Assembly: GCF_018320785.1 (NCBI RefSeq)
Contig: NC_054885.1
Span: 3,484,921-3,548,920, forward strand
Length of the DNA: 64,000 bases
Direction: 5' to 3'
From: Cheilinus undulatus
Lineage: Eukaryota; Chordata; Actinopteri; Labriformes; Labridae
Position numbers and translations under genes: made by a program. Below, piece after piece: positions 1 to 53,175 of this stretch. Under the pieces are notes generated by a model. That model was given only the letters and a program-made list of their open reading frames with translations, did no database searches and was not told the DNA's origin. Position 1 is the first letter of the stretch. Each line of letters begins with the position of its first letter.

Positions 1-620
1 GCATTCCCAAAGTAAACCCAAAGATGTAAGTGTCCTGTCAGCTCTGTACATTGTTTTAAATAAGAACACAGGCCTGGTATCGGTGCGAAGGATGGGAAAG
101 GCAGAGTTATTGTGAGGGTGACGGTACTATGGTTTTGTATTTTTTTATGTGAAGGTTATTGGATGGTTGTAAGGAAAGACATCTGTGTTTGAAATATTCT
201 GTGCTTCAGATTAGTGAAAAATAAGGACTGAAAGCTCTGGTGAGGCCGGGTTAGTCAGAGAAGAAGGTGTCTGATTGGGATTTTAAAGGACGTGTAAGAT
301 ATGAATATTAAAATAATATATGTCATATAAACTGGTAGTAATGATGCCTAACGTCAAACTCCTTGAACTAAAGTGCATAGGCTATTGATGTCAAATTTCT
401 ATTACTTTTTAAAGACTTTTCACGAGTTTCATAGTCACTTTGAAGCAATTAAATTTTATAAACTTTCAAATGTTTAATTTAAGTATCTATCTTTTTATAC
501 ATGTAGAATTTTTAAGCTCACACCACCTTTATGTAACCGCACAGCTCTTCAGTTTATGATTATGAAGGTTTATGTCAGATTTTAGATTGTGTTTCTCAAT
601 GAATTAATAAATGTGGACCA
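1..620 (+). other. possible 3' UTR of an upstream gene
   Basis: No gene-like reading frame is recognisable. An AATAAA signal at 606-611 is followed by a GT-rich stretch, as at a vertebrate polyadenylation site, so this may be the end of a plus-strand transcript that starts before the window. A frame from base 3 stays open for about 37 codons but resembles nothing I know. AT-rich fish DNA has many chance AATAAA sites, so this is weak. Confidence 0.25.
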
Positions 621-44973: not shown

Positions 44974-45079
44974 GTAATGGTAGGTTGGTGATTGTTACTT
45001 TGACCTTTTGAACATTTTAAAGTTTGGACTGCTTTTATCTTTTGTTTTGCTAATGATAAAAATCTATGCAGTCTTTCTG

Positions 45080-48000
45080 ACGATGTGCCTTTTATTTCAC
45101 TAAGCTAAAGGTAATACAAAAACAATTGTGCTGGCAATGGCCCTGTTACTTTACACTGCTAATGGTAAAATAAAAACAGCATTCATGCAGGCCAGTGGGC
45201 GTTTTTATTTGACTCTGCTAATGGTAATACAAAACGAGTATTCAAGCTGACGATGGGTCTGTTATTTCACTCAGCTAAGGGTAAAACAAAAACATTTGTG
45301 TTGGCAATGGCCCTGTTATTTCCCACTGCTAATGGTAAAATAAAGCAGCATTCATGCAGGCACATGGACCTTTTTTATTTGACTCTGCTAATGGTTATAC
45401 AAAACTAGTATTTAAAGGGACAATGGGCCTTTTCTTTAATACTGCTAATGGTAAAATAAAACGGCATTCATGCTGGCAACAGGCCTATCATTTCACACTG
45501 CTAATGGTAATACAAAACTAGAATTTTTGCTAGCAATGGGGCTTCTATTTAACACTGCTAACAGTAATACAAAACATGCATTTGTGCTGGCAATGGCCTT
45601 TTTATTTCACACTGCTAATGGTAAAATAAAACTTGCATTTATGGTGGCAACAGGCCTGTTATTTCACACTGCTAATGGTAATACAAAACATGCATACATG
45701 TTGGCAATGGCCTTTTTATTTCACACTGCTACTGGTAATACAAAACATGCATTCATGCTGGCAACAGACCTGTTATTTCACACTGCTAAGGGTAATAAAA
45801 ACCTGCATTCATGCTGGCAATGGCCTTTTTATTTCACACTGCTAATGGTAAAATAAAACTTGCATTTATGGTGGCAACAGGCCTGTTATTTCACACTGCT
45901 AATGGTAATGTAAAACATGAGAGGTGTTTCAGTGGGTAAACCAGGTAAACCCAATGAAGAAACTGGAGCACACGAATCACTTGAGGACGTTTAATTAGGT
46001 GCAGAGGACTAACGTTTCGACACGCACTGCGTCTTCATCAGAGTCTTTTTTGACTCTGATGAAGACGCAGTGCGCGTCGAAACGTTAGTCCTCTGCACCT
46101 AATTAAACGTCCTCAAGTGATTCGTGTGCTCCAGTTTCTTCATTGGGTTTACCCACTGAAACACCTCTGATTGTTGCTGGTCCTTTTGTGAGCCCCGACC
46201 TCCACGAGTGGAGGGGCTGAAGCGCAAGAGACTCTCTCACCAATGTAAAACATGAATCGTGCTGGCAATGGCCTTTCAATTTAAAATGCTAATGGTAAAA
46301 TAAAACTGGCATTCATGCTGGCAACAGGCCTTTTAATTTCACACTGCTAACAGTAATACAAAACATGCATTTGTGCTGGCAACAAGCCTGTTATTTAACA
46401 CTGCTAATTGTAAAATAAAACTTGCATTCATGTTGGCAACAGGCCTGTTATTTCACACTGCTAATGGTAATACAAAATATGCATTCATGCTGGCAATGGC
46501 CTTTTTTTTCACACTGCTGACAGTAAAATAAAACTTGCGTTCATGCTGGCAGCAGGCCTGTTTATTTCACACTGCTAATGGTAATGCAAAATATGCATTC
46601 ATGTTGGCAACAGGCCTGTTATTTCACACTGCTAATGGTGATACAAAACATGCGTTAATGCTGGCAATGGCCTTTTTATTTCACACTGCTAATGGTTATA
46701 CAAAATCTGCATTTATGCTGGCAACAGGCCTGTTATTTAACACTGCTAATGGTAATACAAAATATGCATTCATGCTGGTAACAGGCCTGTTATTTCACAC
46801 TGTTAATGGTAATACAAAACGTGTTCATGCTGGCAATAGCCTTTTTATTTCACACTGCTAATGGTAATACAAAACATGCATTTATGCTGGCAACAGGCCT
46901 GTTATTTAACACTGCTAATGGTAAAATAAAACTTGCATTCATGTTGGCAACAGGCCTGTTATTTCACACTGCTAATGGTAATGCAAAATATGCATTCATG
47001 CTGGCAACAGGCCTGTTATTTCACACTGCTAATGGTAATACAAAACATGCGTTCATGCTGGCAATGGCCTTTTTCTTTCACACTGCTAATGGTAAAATAA
47101 AACTTGCATTCACGCTGGCAACAGGCCTGTTATTTCACACTGCTAAGGGTAATAAAAACCTGCATTCATGCTGGCAATGGCCTTTTTATTTCACACTGCT
47201 AACGGTAAAACAAAACATGCATTCATGGTGGCAACAGGCCTGTTATTTCACACTGCTAATGGTAATACAAAACATGAATCGTGCTGGCAATGGCCTTTTT
47301 TTCACACTGCTAATATTAAAATAAAACTTGAATTTATGCTGGCAACAGGCCTGTTATTTCACACTGCTAATGGTAATGCAAAACATGCATTCATGCTGGC
47401 AATGGCCTTTTTATTTCACACTGCTAACCGCAAAATAAAACTTGCATTTATGCTTGCAACAGGCCTTTTTATTTCACACTGCTAATATTAAAATAAAACT
47501 TGAATTTATGCTGGCAACAGGCCTGTTATTTCACACTGCTAATGGTAATACAAAACACGCATTCATGCTGGCAGTGGCCTTTTTATTTCACACTGTTAAT
47601 GGTAATGCAAAACATGCGTTCATGCTGGCAATAGCCTTTTTATTTCACACTGCTAATGGTAATACAAAATATGCATTCATGCTGGCAACAGGCCTGTTAT
47701 TTCACACTGCTAAGGGTAATGTAAAACCTGCATTCATGCTGGCAATGGCCTTTTGATTTAAAATGCTAACGGTAAATAAAACTTGCTTTCATGCTGCCAA
47801 CAGGCCTTTTATTTTCACACTGCTAAGGGTAATAAAAATCTGCATTGATGCTGGCAATGGCATTTTTATTTCACACTGCCAATGGTAGAATAAAACTTGC
47901 ATTCATGCTGGCAACAGGCCTGTTATTTAACAATGCTAATGGTAATGCAAAATCTGCATTTATGCTGGCAATGGCCTTTTTATTTCACACTGCTAAGGGT

Positions 48001-49265
48001 AGAATAAAACTTGCTTTCATTTTGGCAACAGGCCTGTTATTTCACACTGCTAAGGGTAATAAAAACCTGCATTCATGCTGGCAATGGCCTTTTTGCTTCA
48101 CACTGCTAATGGTAATACAAAACCTGCATTCATGCTGGCAATGGCCTTTTTATTTCACACTGCTAACGATAAAATAAAACTTGCATTCATGCTGGCAACA
48201 GGCCTGTTATTTCACACTGCTAATGGTGATACAAAATATGCATTCATGCTGGCAACAAGCCTGTCATTTCACACTGCTAATGGTAATTAAAAAAAACATG
48301 CATTCACGCTGGCAATGGCCTTTTTCTTTCACACTGCTAATGGTAAAATAAAACAGCATTCATGCTGGCAGCAGGCTTGTTATTTCACACTGCTAATGGT
48401 AATACAAAACATGCATTCATGCTGGCAATGCCCTTTTTATTTCACACTGCTAATGGTAGAATAAAACTTGCTTTCATTCTGGCAACAGGCCTGTTATTTC
48501 ACACTGCTAAGGGTAAGAAAAACCTGCATTCATGCTGGCAATGGCCTTTTTATTTCACAATGGTTATGGTTATACAAAATATGCATTCATGCTGGCAACA
48601 GGCCTGTTATTTCACACCGCTAAAGGTAATATAAAACTTGCATTCATGCTGGCAATGGCCTTTTTATTTCACACTGCTAATGGTAATACAAAACATGCAT
48701 TCATGCTGGCAACAGGCCTTTTTATTTAACACTGTTAATGGTAACATAAAACATGCATTTATGCTGGCAACAGGCCTGTCATTTCACACTGCTAATGGTA
48801 ATACAAAACATGCATTCATGCTGGCAATGGCCTTTTTATTTCACACTGCTAATGGTAGAATAAAACTTGCTTTCATTCTGGCAACAGGCCTGTCATTTCA
48901 CACTGCTAAGGGTAAGAAAAACCTGCATTCATGCTAGCAATGGCCTTTTTATTTCACACTGCTAATGGTAATACAAAATATGCATTCATGCTGGCAACAG
49001 GCCTTTTTATTTAACACTGTTAATGGTAACATAAAACATGCATTTATGCTGGCAACAGGCCTGTCATTTCACACTGCTAATGGTAATACAAAACATGCAT
49101 TTATGCTGGCAACAGGCCTGTCATTTCACACTGCTAATGGTAATTTAAAAAAACATGCATTCATGCTGGCAATGGCCTTTTGCTTTCACACTGCTAATGG
49201 TAAAATAAAACTTGAATTCATGTTGGCAACACACCTGTTATTTCACACTGCTTATGGTGCATATA
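45080..49265 (+). repeat. 57 bp minisatellite array, large
   Basis: The array consists of tandem units of about 57 bp. Since 57 is divisible by 3, a 19-residue period (MLATGLLFHTANGNTKHAF) appears in translation, with frames of up to 172 codons. Length divided by unit gives roughly 65-70 units. Frames break repeatedly through small indels and there is no consistent start, so I do not call a gene. It is interrupted by a 322 bp insertion at 45920-46241. A small diverged copy of the array is at 51320-51590. Confidence 0.95.
45920..46241. mobile_element. palindromic insertion with hammerhead-like cores
   Basis: It is flanked by a perfect 13 bp duplication, AATGTAAAACATG (45907-45919 and 46242-46254), so it is a true insertion into the 57 bp array. 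Its left arm (45920-46045) and right arm (46052-46168) are inverted copies with one mismatch and one 9-base length difference, around a loop of six T. A unique tail of about 70 bp follows. Each arm carries CTGATGA, a short stem, then GAAAC, GTTA and GTC, the layout of a minimal hammerhead ribozyme. Such ribozymes occur in Penelope-like retroelements, which also make inverted or partial copies. That assignment is inferred. Confidence 0.75.
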
Positions 49266-49369
49266 AAACAAGCAAGTGTTAAAAAAAATTCTATTTAATA
49301 TAACAAAACAAAGGACAAAGGTGTGTGGTTTTGGGTCAGGATTTAGGGTCTTTGTATTTTTTTTATGTG

Positions 49370-49454: not shown

Positions 49455-50882
49455 GACGGTTCCTCTTGCCTCCGGGTCCTGCTCCGCCCTACAGAGGGTT
49501 TCTCCGGCCTCCGGGTCCTCCTCCACCCTGCAGAGGGTTCCTCTGGCCTCCGAGTCCTACTCCACCCTGAAATGGGTTTCTCTGGCCTCCGGGTCCTACT
49601 CCATTCTAAAAAAGTTTCCTTCAGCCTCCGGGTCCTAATCCACCCCACAGAGGGTTCCTCCGGCCTCTGGGTCCTATTCCACCCTGAAAAGGGTTCCTCT
49701 GGCCTCCGGGTCCTACTCCATTCTAAAAACGGTTCCTTCGGCCTCCGGGTCCTACTCCACCCTGAAATGGGTTCCTCCGGCCTCCGGGTCCTACTCCATT
49801 CTAAAAATGGTTCCTTCGGCCTCCGGGTCCTACTCCACCCTGAAATGGGTTCCTCCGGCCTCCGGGTCCTACTCCATTATAAAAATGGTTCCTTCAGCCT
49901 CCGGGTCCTACTCCACCCTGAAATGGGTTCCTCCGGCCTCCGGGTCGTACTCCACCCTGCAAAGGGTTCCTCCGGCCTCCAGGTCCTACTCCATTATAAA
50001 AATGGTTCCTCCGGCCTCCGGGTCCTACTCCATACTCAAAATGGTTCCTTCAGCCTCCGGGTCCTACTCCACCCAGAAAAGGGTTCCTTTGGCTTCCGGG
50101 CCCTTCTCCACCCTACAAAGGGTTCCTCCGGCCTCCGGGTCCTACTCCACCCTGCAGAGGGTTCCTCTGGCCTCCAGGCCCTCCTCCACCCTGCAGAGGG
50201 TTCCTCTGGCCTCCGGGCCGTACTCCACCCTGCAAAGGGTTCCTCCGGCCTCCAGGTCCTACTCCATTCTAGAAAAGGTTCCTTCGGCCTCCGGGTCCTA
50301 CTCCACCCTACAGAGGGTTCCTCCGGCCTCCGGGTCCTATTCCATTCTAAAAAAGGTTCCTTCGGCCTCCGGGTCCTACTCCACCCTGAAAAGGGTTCCT
50401 CTGGCTTCCGGGCCCTCCTCCACCCTACAAAGGGTGCCTCCGGCCTCCAGGTCCTACTCCATTCTAAAAATGGTTCCTTCGGCCTCCGGGTCCTACTCCA
50501 CCCTACAGAGGGTTCCTCCGGCCTCCGGGTCCTATTCCATTCTAAAAACGGTTCCTTCGGCCTCCGGGTCCTACTCCACCCTGAAAAGGGTTCCTCTGGC
50601 TTCCGGGCCCTCCTCCACCCTACAAAGGGTTCCTCCGGCCTCCGGGTCCTACTCTATTCTAAAAATGGTTTCCTCCGGGCCCTCCTCCACCCTGCAGAGG
50701 GTTCCTCTGGCTTCCGGGTCATACTCCACCCTGCAAAGGGTTCTTCTGGCCTCCGGGTCCTACTCCACCCTACAGAGGGTTCCTCCAGCCTCTGGGTCCT
50801 TCTCCACCCTGAAATGGGTTTCCCCTCGGCCTCCGGCCCTCCTCCACCCTGCAGAGGGTTCCTCAGGCCTCCAGGTCTTTCT
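49455..50882 (+). repeat. 39 bp GC-rich minisatellite array, large
   Basis: Tandem units of 39 bp (about 36 by length) give a 13-residue period, GSSGLRVLLHPEK-like. A 498-codon frame runs through it (49401-50897) while a second long frame (385 codons) overlaps it. Both follow from a stop-free 39 bp unit, so they are not evidence of a protein. Two main unit types alternate, one with CCACCCTGAAA and one with CCATTCTAAAAA, pointing to higher-order repeats. Confidence 0.95.
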
Positions 50883-50884
50883 CC

Positions 50885-51180
50885 CCCCCTTATGTGAACT
50901 TAAAACTAAATATCAAAGATTCATTCAATACAACAAAGAAAAGACTCTGCACTACAATGAATAAAAGTGTATTCAAAACAAAAACATTACTAAGTGTATT
51001 TTACACCAAAAGCAACAAAGTTCCCAAACTGTTTCCAGTAAGACAAAAGCAACAAATATGTTCAACGCAAAAAGTCAAAAAACAAAAAAACAAAAACAAA
51101 AAGAAAAGTACGAAAAGTTATTTTTGCAATTCAAATTGTCAAATGACTTTCACTGTCTAAATCTGGATGTTCACACACAA
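50885..51180. other. A-rich spacer
   Basis: A-rich sequence with no gene. Similar A-rich spacers lie at 44600-44820 and 51990-52400 beside the other modules. Confidence 0.5.
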
Positions 51181-52399: not shown

Positions 52400-53175
52400 A
52401 AACAGTACAACAACAGCAAAACAATATTTTCGAAGTGCTTTCAGGGAAACTTGGACCAACAATGGACCAAAAGTAAAAAAAACATTCTCAAAGAGCTTTC
52501 AAGGAAACTTGGACCAACAATGGACCAACAGTAAAAAAAAAAAAGTTTTCAAAGAGCTTTCAAGGAAACTTGGACCAACAATGGACCAACAGCACAACAA
52601 AACAAAACAAAACAAACAAAAAACAATATTATCAAAGAGCTTTCAAAGAAACTTGGACCAACAATGGATTAACGGTTAAAAAAAAAATACCCATTAAGAA
52701 TTTTTTAAGGAAACTTGGACCAACAATGAACCAACAGTAAAAAGATAAGTTCTCAAAGGGCTTTCAAGGTAACTTGGACCAACAATGGACTAACAGTAAA
52801 AAACACAATACTGTCAAAGAGCTTTTAGAGAAACTTGGACCAACAACGGACTAACAGTGGGAAAAAAACAATATTTTCAAAGAGCTTTCAAGGAAACTTG
52901 GACCAACAATGGACCAAAAGTAAGAAAATATTCTCAAAGGGCTTTCAAGGCAACTTGGACCAACAATGGACTAACATTAAAACAAAACAAAACAATATTA
53001 TCAAAGAGCTTTCAAAGAAACTTGGACCAACAATGGATTAACGGTTAAAAAAAACAATACCCATGAAGAGCTTTCAAGGAAACTTGGACCAACAACGGAC
53101 TAACAGTGGAAAAAAAAACTATATTTTCAAAGAGCTTTCAAGGAAACTTGGACCAACAGTGGAACAACAAAATTC
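52400..53175 (+). repeat. ~60 bp minisatellite array
   Basis: Twelve visible occurrences of CTTGGACCAACA at about 55-80 bp intervals. The unit is AAAGAGCTTTCAAGGAAAC, then CTTGGACCAACAATGGACCA, then an A-rich spacer of variable length. It is unrelated to the 57 and 39 bp units. Confidence 0.9.

Follow-up and report, generated by a model that had tools for sequence, protein, structure and literature searches.

The window, a stretch of 64,000 nucleotides from the genome of Cheilinus undulatus, contains a 57-nt minisatellite (45077..49270, delimited with Tandem Repeats Finder) that is the recipient of a palindromic insert. More tandem arrays (39-nt and about 61-nt units) lie beside the minisatellite at 49458-50888 and 52411-53169. 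The insert opens with an inverted arm of 126 nt on the minus strand (45920..46045), hereafter the A-arm, followed by a TTTTTT centre (46046..46051), which is the probable junction of two cDNA copies, and a direct arm of 117 nt on the plus strand (46052..46168). The left and right arms differ by one mismatch and one 9-nt indel, and a small duplication of the GGTAAACCA type sits in the left arm. As an inverted pair within the window they comprise two 102-nt arms, 99% complementary and spaced by 6 nt; judged by arm length, this pairing is far beyond chance.

On the reference scale described below, the A-arm covers x 70..199, from start site A to near the inferred mRNA 5' end. The direct arm, the pLTR part common to sister copies, belongs to a longer B-arm spanning x 0..202. 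It begins with a motif resembling a minimal hammerhead, GACT-CTGATGA-(stem II)-GAAA-CGTT-AGTC, recognised by eye on the plus strand (46052..46090). Start site A, CACCTCTGATTG (46160..46176, plus strand), is the point in the direct arm at which the inverted arms of sister copies begin. The tail (46169..46241, plus strand) is element sequence running from start site A to start site B and is present at one end only. Start site B, CTCTCTCACC (46232..46241, plus strand), forms the fixed right end of the family.

Within the window, the sequence AATGTAAAACATG has exactly two occurrences, at 45907-45919 and 46242-46254. The target-site duplication is thus 13 nt long, or 14 nt if the next A, which may belong to either side, is counted as shared; including this A, common with the element, the left copy spans 45907..45920 and the right copy 46242..46255. 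When the insert is removed, the joined flanks are alike with the minisatellite unit at 47252 at 45/50 positions across the junction, and a longer best match (103/133) is found with the unit at 47204. Because the joined flanks match another unit, the minisatellite array itself supplies the empty site. The palindrome, its six-T centre, the tail and the flanking duplication all lie where the original prediction had placed them. A phage collection contained no match. The eight listed Rfam matches in the palindrome (mir-2513, MIR162_2, mir-759, lsy-6 and others) all score below the curated values and reflect the long hairpin, and a microRNA reading was rejected.

The insert family in the host genome

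A search of the host genome (1.17 Gb, 46 contigs) with the insert returned at least 87 scored matches. A pattern spanning the arm-tail junction, with up to two mismatches allowed, was found at 49 genome places, and the reversed control pattern at none. The tail, described at first as unique, is so within the window but not in the genome, where its junction with the arm recurs at these 49 places. Fold-back insertions of this kind had likewise been expected to be rare, whereas the host genome carries dozens of related ones.

After removal of duplicate loci, 65 distinct copies were read. Thirteen of these, the window copy included, are compact fold-backs whose flanks do not align to each other and whose centres all differ, so they appear to have formed separately and not as copies of one palindrome. 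The whole set divides into 41 A/B copies, three A-only copies (L080, L084, L086), four B-only copies (L022, L026, L061 and L034, the last called by eye without a scored duplication), one copy set aside (L023) and 16 without a class (L021, L027, L029, L030, L033, L044, L050, L053, L058, L066, L071, L072, L083, L085, L089, L090). The A/B assignment is based on a scored duplication in 34 copies, on flanks compared by eye in L037, L041, L055 and L057, and on the arms only in L054, L064 and L069, with the site-B end of L054 cut back. One-ended copies therefore make up 7/49 of those classed, L023 being odd: one of its flanks is an inverted copy of the other for about 630 nt, which is why it was set aside.

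Outer ends, inner ends and arm concordance

Distances (x) were counted from the tail end on reference copy L021 for 46 loci. Both outer ends were measurable in 34 of these, the other 12 being L022, L026, L027, L034, L061, L080, L083-L086, L089 and L090. The outer ends are fixed: the site-B end falls at x 0-3 in 34/34 copies, and the inverted arm starts at site A between x 54 and 93, within 63-78 in 30/34 copies and outside this range in four (the L024 start was measured in a separate analysis from the other 33). The inner ends are free, ranging from x 97 to 935 in the A-arm and from x 22 to 553 in the B-arm across the 34 copies.

Most copies had been recovered with a pattern that needs the tail, and the resulting bias was tested with a second pattern ending at site A, which found 181 genome places compared with 60 for a control pattern. 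Among the 100 places listed of these 181, 15 tail-less members without a tail partner were recognised by eye, and 13 of them were fetched (C7:27820978 and C16:42527209 were left out). L079, L081, L082, L087 and L088 each combine a site-A arm with a short site-B arm and a clear duplication, and are included in the 34 copies. L091 also has a short site-B arm, flanked by a duplication with three mismatches, while L085, L089 and L090 have a site-A end and second-arm parts that stop short of site B. The other four of the 13 are the A-only copies L080, L084 and L086, together with L083, one of the copies without a class. Two tail-less ends facing each other were not seen among the 100 of 181 places listed.

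The duplication had been predicted to vary in length. Instead it is near constant, at 14-16 nt in 30/34 copies (14 nt in 18, 15 nt in eight and 16 nt in four; the remaining copies have 9, 17, 19 and 20 nt), and 26 of the 30 duplications of 14-16 nt are without mismatch. A copy's own flank pair scores 14 or more in 28/34 cases, above all 1,122 mismatched pairs, of which the maximum is 12 and 39 score 9 or more. The six low scores of 8-11 (L010, L016, L018, L019, L039, L091) lie inside this control range, and none of them is proof when taken singly. So nearly constant a length suggests that the two strands are cut with a defined stagger, leaving 3' overhangs, as priming from both sides would require.

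Many inner ends share a common stop. In the 34 copies, 22 of 68 inner ends (12 inverted, 10 direct) fall at x 196-206, at TTTGACTC. In long copies a promoter-like box, TTTAAGG, stands about 30 nt upstream of this stop, a usual spacing for a promoter. Among the 100 places listed of 195, there are 42 5' ends that are not continuous pLTR; of these listed ends, 33 end in TT before GACTC, and the T-run of the 33 is preceded by GG in nine and by a single G in 11. The extra G residues hint at copying of a capped end, short of proof. The common stops may be the run-off ends of capped RNA, in which case the capped 5' end would be expected at GTTTGACTC.

The two arms of a copy agree with each other. Two diagnostic sites, picked from an alignment of the 13 compact fold-backs, are identical between arms in 20/20 copies readable in both arms (from 51 loci), whereas shuffling gave a mean of 7.1 and a maximum of 15 in 10,000 shuffles. 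An arm stopping at 192-206 is paired with an arm running past 206 in 0/34 copies, with a shuffle mean of 7.2 and P of 0.00015 and 0.00005 in two shuffle runs. These first limits were set after the data had been seen and were then varied; with the stop limit at 220, one mixed copy appears (L028; shuffle mean 6.7, P 0.002). A variant private among 21 copies is present in both arms in 6/21, the window copy among them, and the window's rare T variant occurs in both its arms and, counting exact matches only, at one other place in the genome (L088). The nearest arm is strictly the partner in 8/42 arms and is tied with it in 13/42; in 21/42, another arm is nearer, a pattern also to be expected from mutations acquired later by old copies. 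Arm concordance and the common stop fit one RNA, or RNAs from one source. Concordance could also arise if one source were active at a time, or by later conversion between arms. Arms from two unrelated RNAs are disfavoured by the 20/20 haplotype agreement and the absence of mixed-stop pairs.

Relationship to Penelope-like elements

In longer copies, the same arm is immediately preceded by coding sequence. Its translation matches the Pfam family RVT_1 with E-values of 0.00015 (L074) and 0.00054 (L078), both below the curated cut-off of 29.6 bits, and a 167-aa piece in which a YIDD motif was recognised by eye has 136 genome matches. The best match of the 121-aa pieces is PF01541 (GIY-YIG), with E-values of 0.00071 (L078) and 0.0068 (L074), again below the cut-off (22.6 bits); a value under 0.01 was reached only once the fragment was trimmed to 121 aa, and a 99-aa piece gave E 0.066. 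Neither three shorter protein fragments nor the 254-aa frame of L074 matched a Pfam family at E 0.01. Searched against PDB sequences, the longer protein had no match and the EN piece matched only aminopeptidases, at E 1.6 or worse. NCBIfam gave weak matches only, to Drt3a for the longer protein (E 0.014) and to PepT for the EN piece (E 0.15).

The copies have the layout of a Penelope-like element (PLE), with one pLTR beside the ORF, a second in inverted orientation at the opposite end and a tail on one of the two, and they share the PLE trait of a target-site duplication. The earlier guess of a PLE is supported by the longer copies, in which arm and tail adjoin RT and GIY-YIG-like coding sequence. 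On sequence grounds, the insertions most likely belong to one PLE family. A PLE is by far the likeliest source, given the RT-like and GIY-YIG-like matches together with the inverted arm and one-sided tail, features of PLEs in the sections of PMC3846280 and PMC11167929 drawn on here. The genome search for arm and tail proposed at the outset yielded longer copies with RT-like sequence beside the arm, but not a full-length donor. No match to the 575-aa frame, which may lack its N-terminus, was found downstream of a tail over a span of, at most loci, about 1.4 kb; only partial copies were recognised. The hammerhead-like motif has no Rfam hammerhead match and its minimum-energy fold differs from it; PLE hammerheads are described in part of PMC6155905 as usually being without helix III.

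Neither the element nor its inverted-arm layout is of a new kind. A close parallel is PAc, a Penelope-like element (Poseidon) of the anole Anolis carolinensis: according to the parts of PMC11167929 cited here, its RT has two adjacent internal start sites whose interval corresponds to the tail, and 5' of these sites PAc likewise has a motif resembling a hammerhead. Its protein cuts and extends both target strands, as demonstrated in vitro (PMC11167929). There are also differences. The tail is 30-40 bp in PAc and about 70 in the window family, and in vitro the same PAc start sites are used on both strands, whereas the window family shows A/B pairing. Further, the PAc reading frame begins in the hammerhead (PMC11167929), while the ATG of the window motif leads, by eye, to a stop after nine codons. 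The main text of that paper uses the word 'inverted' once, of a blocking group.

The Penelope elements of the rotifer Adineta vaga resemble the window family: as far as the relevant part of PMC3846280 describes them, they carry an inverted pLTR at one of their ends, form palindromes at the inverted junction and have target duplications. There, one of the inverted pLTRs bears a 31-bp tail, and an inverted pLTR is 37 bp shorter than the full ones. Duplications in Adineta vaga are 8-10 bp or none in that part of PMC3846280, in contrast to mostly 14-16 nt here, and the window family differs further in its many short copies without a reading frame. The motif ATT directly follows the tail end in 7/30 loci (right flanks, read by eye), although the first A might be the element's own; in the portion of PMC11167929 consulted, the anole PLE cuts at ATT more often than at any other motif.

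Proposed two-ended insertion and competing mechanisms

How PLEs insert is debated, with self-priming, antisense templates and two-strand priming all considered. Since each palindrome records cDNA ends, start sites and stagger, the question can be addressed on dozens of natural insertions. We propose that the insert is probably a short PLE copy that arose by two-ended target-primed reverse transcription. The element endonuclease would cut the two target strands about 14 nt apart, creating two 3' ends. On the element RNA, one 3' end would prime cDNA synthesis at internal start site B and the other at start site A, which lies about 70 nt closer to the 5' end. The two cDNAs would extend toward the RNA 5' end and then be joined. 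The difference between the two start sites would account for the tail of about 70 nt at one end only. In the window copy, both cDNAs appear to have reached about the same point, likely the mRNA 5' end, and would have been joined with six Ts to give the head-to-head palindrome. Long copies would come from RNA beginning further upstream, and one-ended copies from events in which only one start succeeded.

The fixed outer ends, free inner ends, near-constant duplication, arm concordance and common inner stop are features of the copies themselves; from them we infer that RNA templated both arms, that one molecule served two enzymes in tandem, that the stop marks a capped end and that a joining step followed. 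The more specific version, in which paired reverse transcriptases work in tandem on one RNA with two adjacent start sites, each on one 3' end of a staggered cut of roughly 14 nt, is offered tentatively, with confidence falling slightly short of even. If it is true, a single reaction would have three outcomes, namely the tail on one side, the inverted pLTR and the short palindromes, and would take the place of self-priming. The data predict that, on a single RNA, each of the two target strands uses a start site of its own. Cutting and extension of both strands, with starts at two adjacent internal sites, are also seen with the anole PLE protein, but the A/B pairing goes beyond the account in PMC11167929, as far as its cited parts go, because no start-site difference between strands was seen in vitro there. 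A two-fixed-end census, the 14-nt stagger and arm concordance were not found in the literature searched (open-licence papers).

Among other routes, a template jump, in which cDNA from site B switches to an antisense RNA with its 5' end at site A, is unlikely. With such a jump the outer inverted end would be constant and the inner end variable, as seen, and bidirectional transcription of PLEs is suggested in part of PMC3846280. By itself, however, it leaves unexplained both the A-only insertions (L080, L084 and L086) and the absence of any common-stop arm paired with a run-past arm.

Self-primed fold-back, in which the end of one cDNA folds back and primes its own copying before the hairpin is inserted, is the reading offered for rotifer PLEs, on an antisense template, in the section of PMC3846280 that treats them. 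Head-to-head palindromes and identical haplotypes in both arms would follow directly, but so would equal inner ends, with no preferred stop at site A. The inner ends are unequal, for example, in L024, L025, L042, L048, L049 and L065: L048 has an A-arm to 731 and a B-arm to 299, while in L065 the A-arm reaches 97 and the B-arm 523. Unequal inner ends, combined with an outer inverted end that keeps close to site A, make self-priming very unlikely.

Twin priming of the LINE type, in which the second target strand primes within the same RNA upstream of the first reverse transcriptase, was suggested in the original prediction. It yields an inverted 5' piece and a target duplication, and LINE-1 twin-primed insertions indeed have an inverted segment at their 5' side and a target duplication. 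Their two segments are adjacent and not overlapping, the inverted start is variable and a fixed second start site is absent. In the window family, the arms overlap widely in most copies (but not in L079, L087, L088 and L091, whose site-B arm is very short), and the inverted start hardly varies. Both properties speak against twin priming, which we consider highly improbable.

Palindromes are prone to mis-assembly, yet the possibility that the palindrome centre is an assembly artefact or a local inverted duplication is exceedingly small, as copies at unrelated places, with different centres and duplications, have the same design; it is common to 34 copies, 28 of them with a duplication above every mismatched pair. 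A DNA transposon of the cut-and-paste fold-back or MITE-like type, bounded by long terminal inverted repeats, can be dismissed almost entirely: it would give inverted arms and a nearly constant duplication length, but the ends are asymmetrical with a tail on one only, the 13 compact copies have differing centres, arms are shortened from the inside, and the long copies contain RT-like coding sequence.

Several copies show irregular ends. The left end of L023 (C24:12230158-12238359) opens with an inverted tail, i.e. with site B. At the right end of L034, about 60 nt of tail together with flanking DNA is tandemly duplicated (~108 nt). The inverted arm of L024 consists of 14 nt from site A followed by x 345 to x 582, the gap representing either a jump or a later deletion. 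Finally, at the right end of L088 (C7:45061500-45063251), the first ~21 nt from site B are present three times, spaced by ATTATTA and ATTATGA, which looks like the result of repeated restarts of the enzyme at B.
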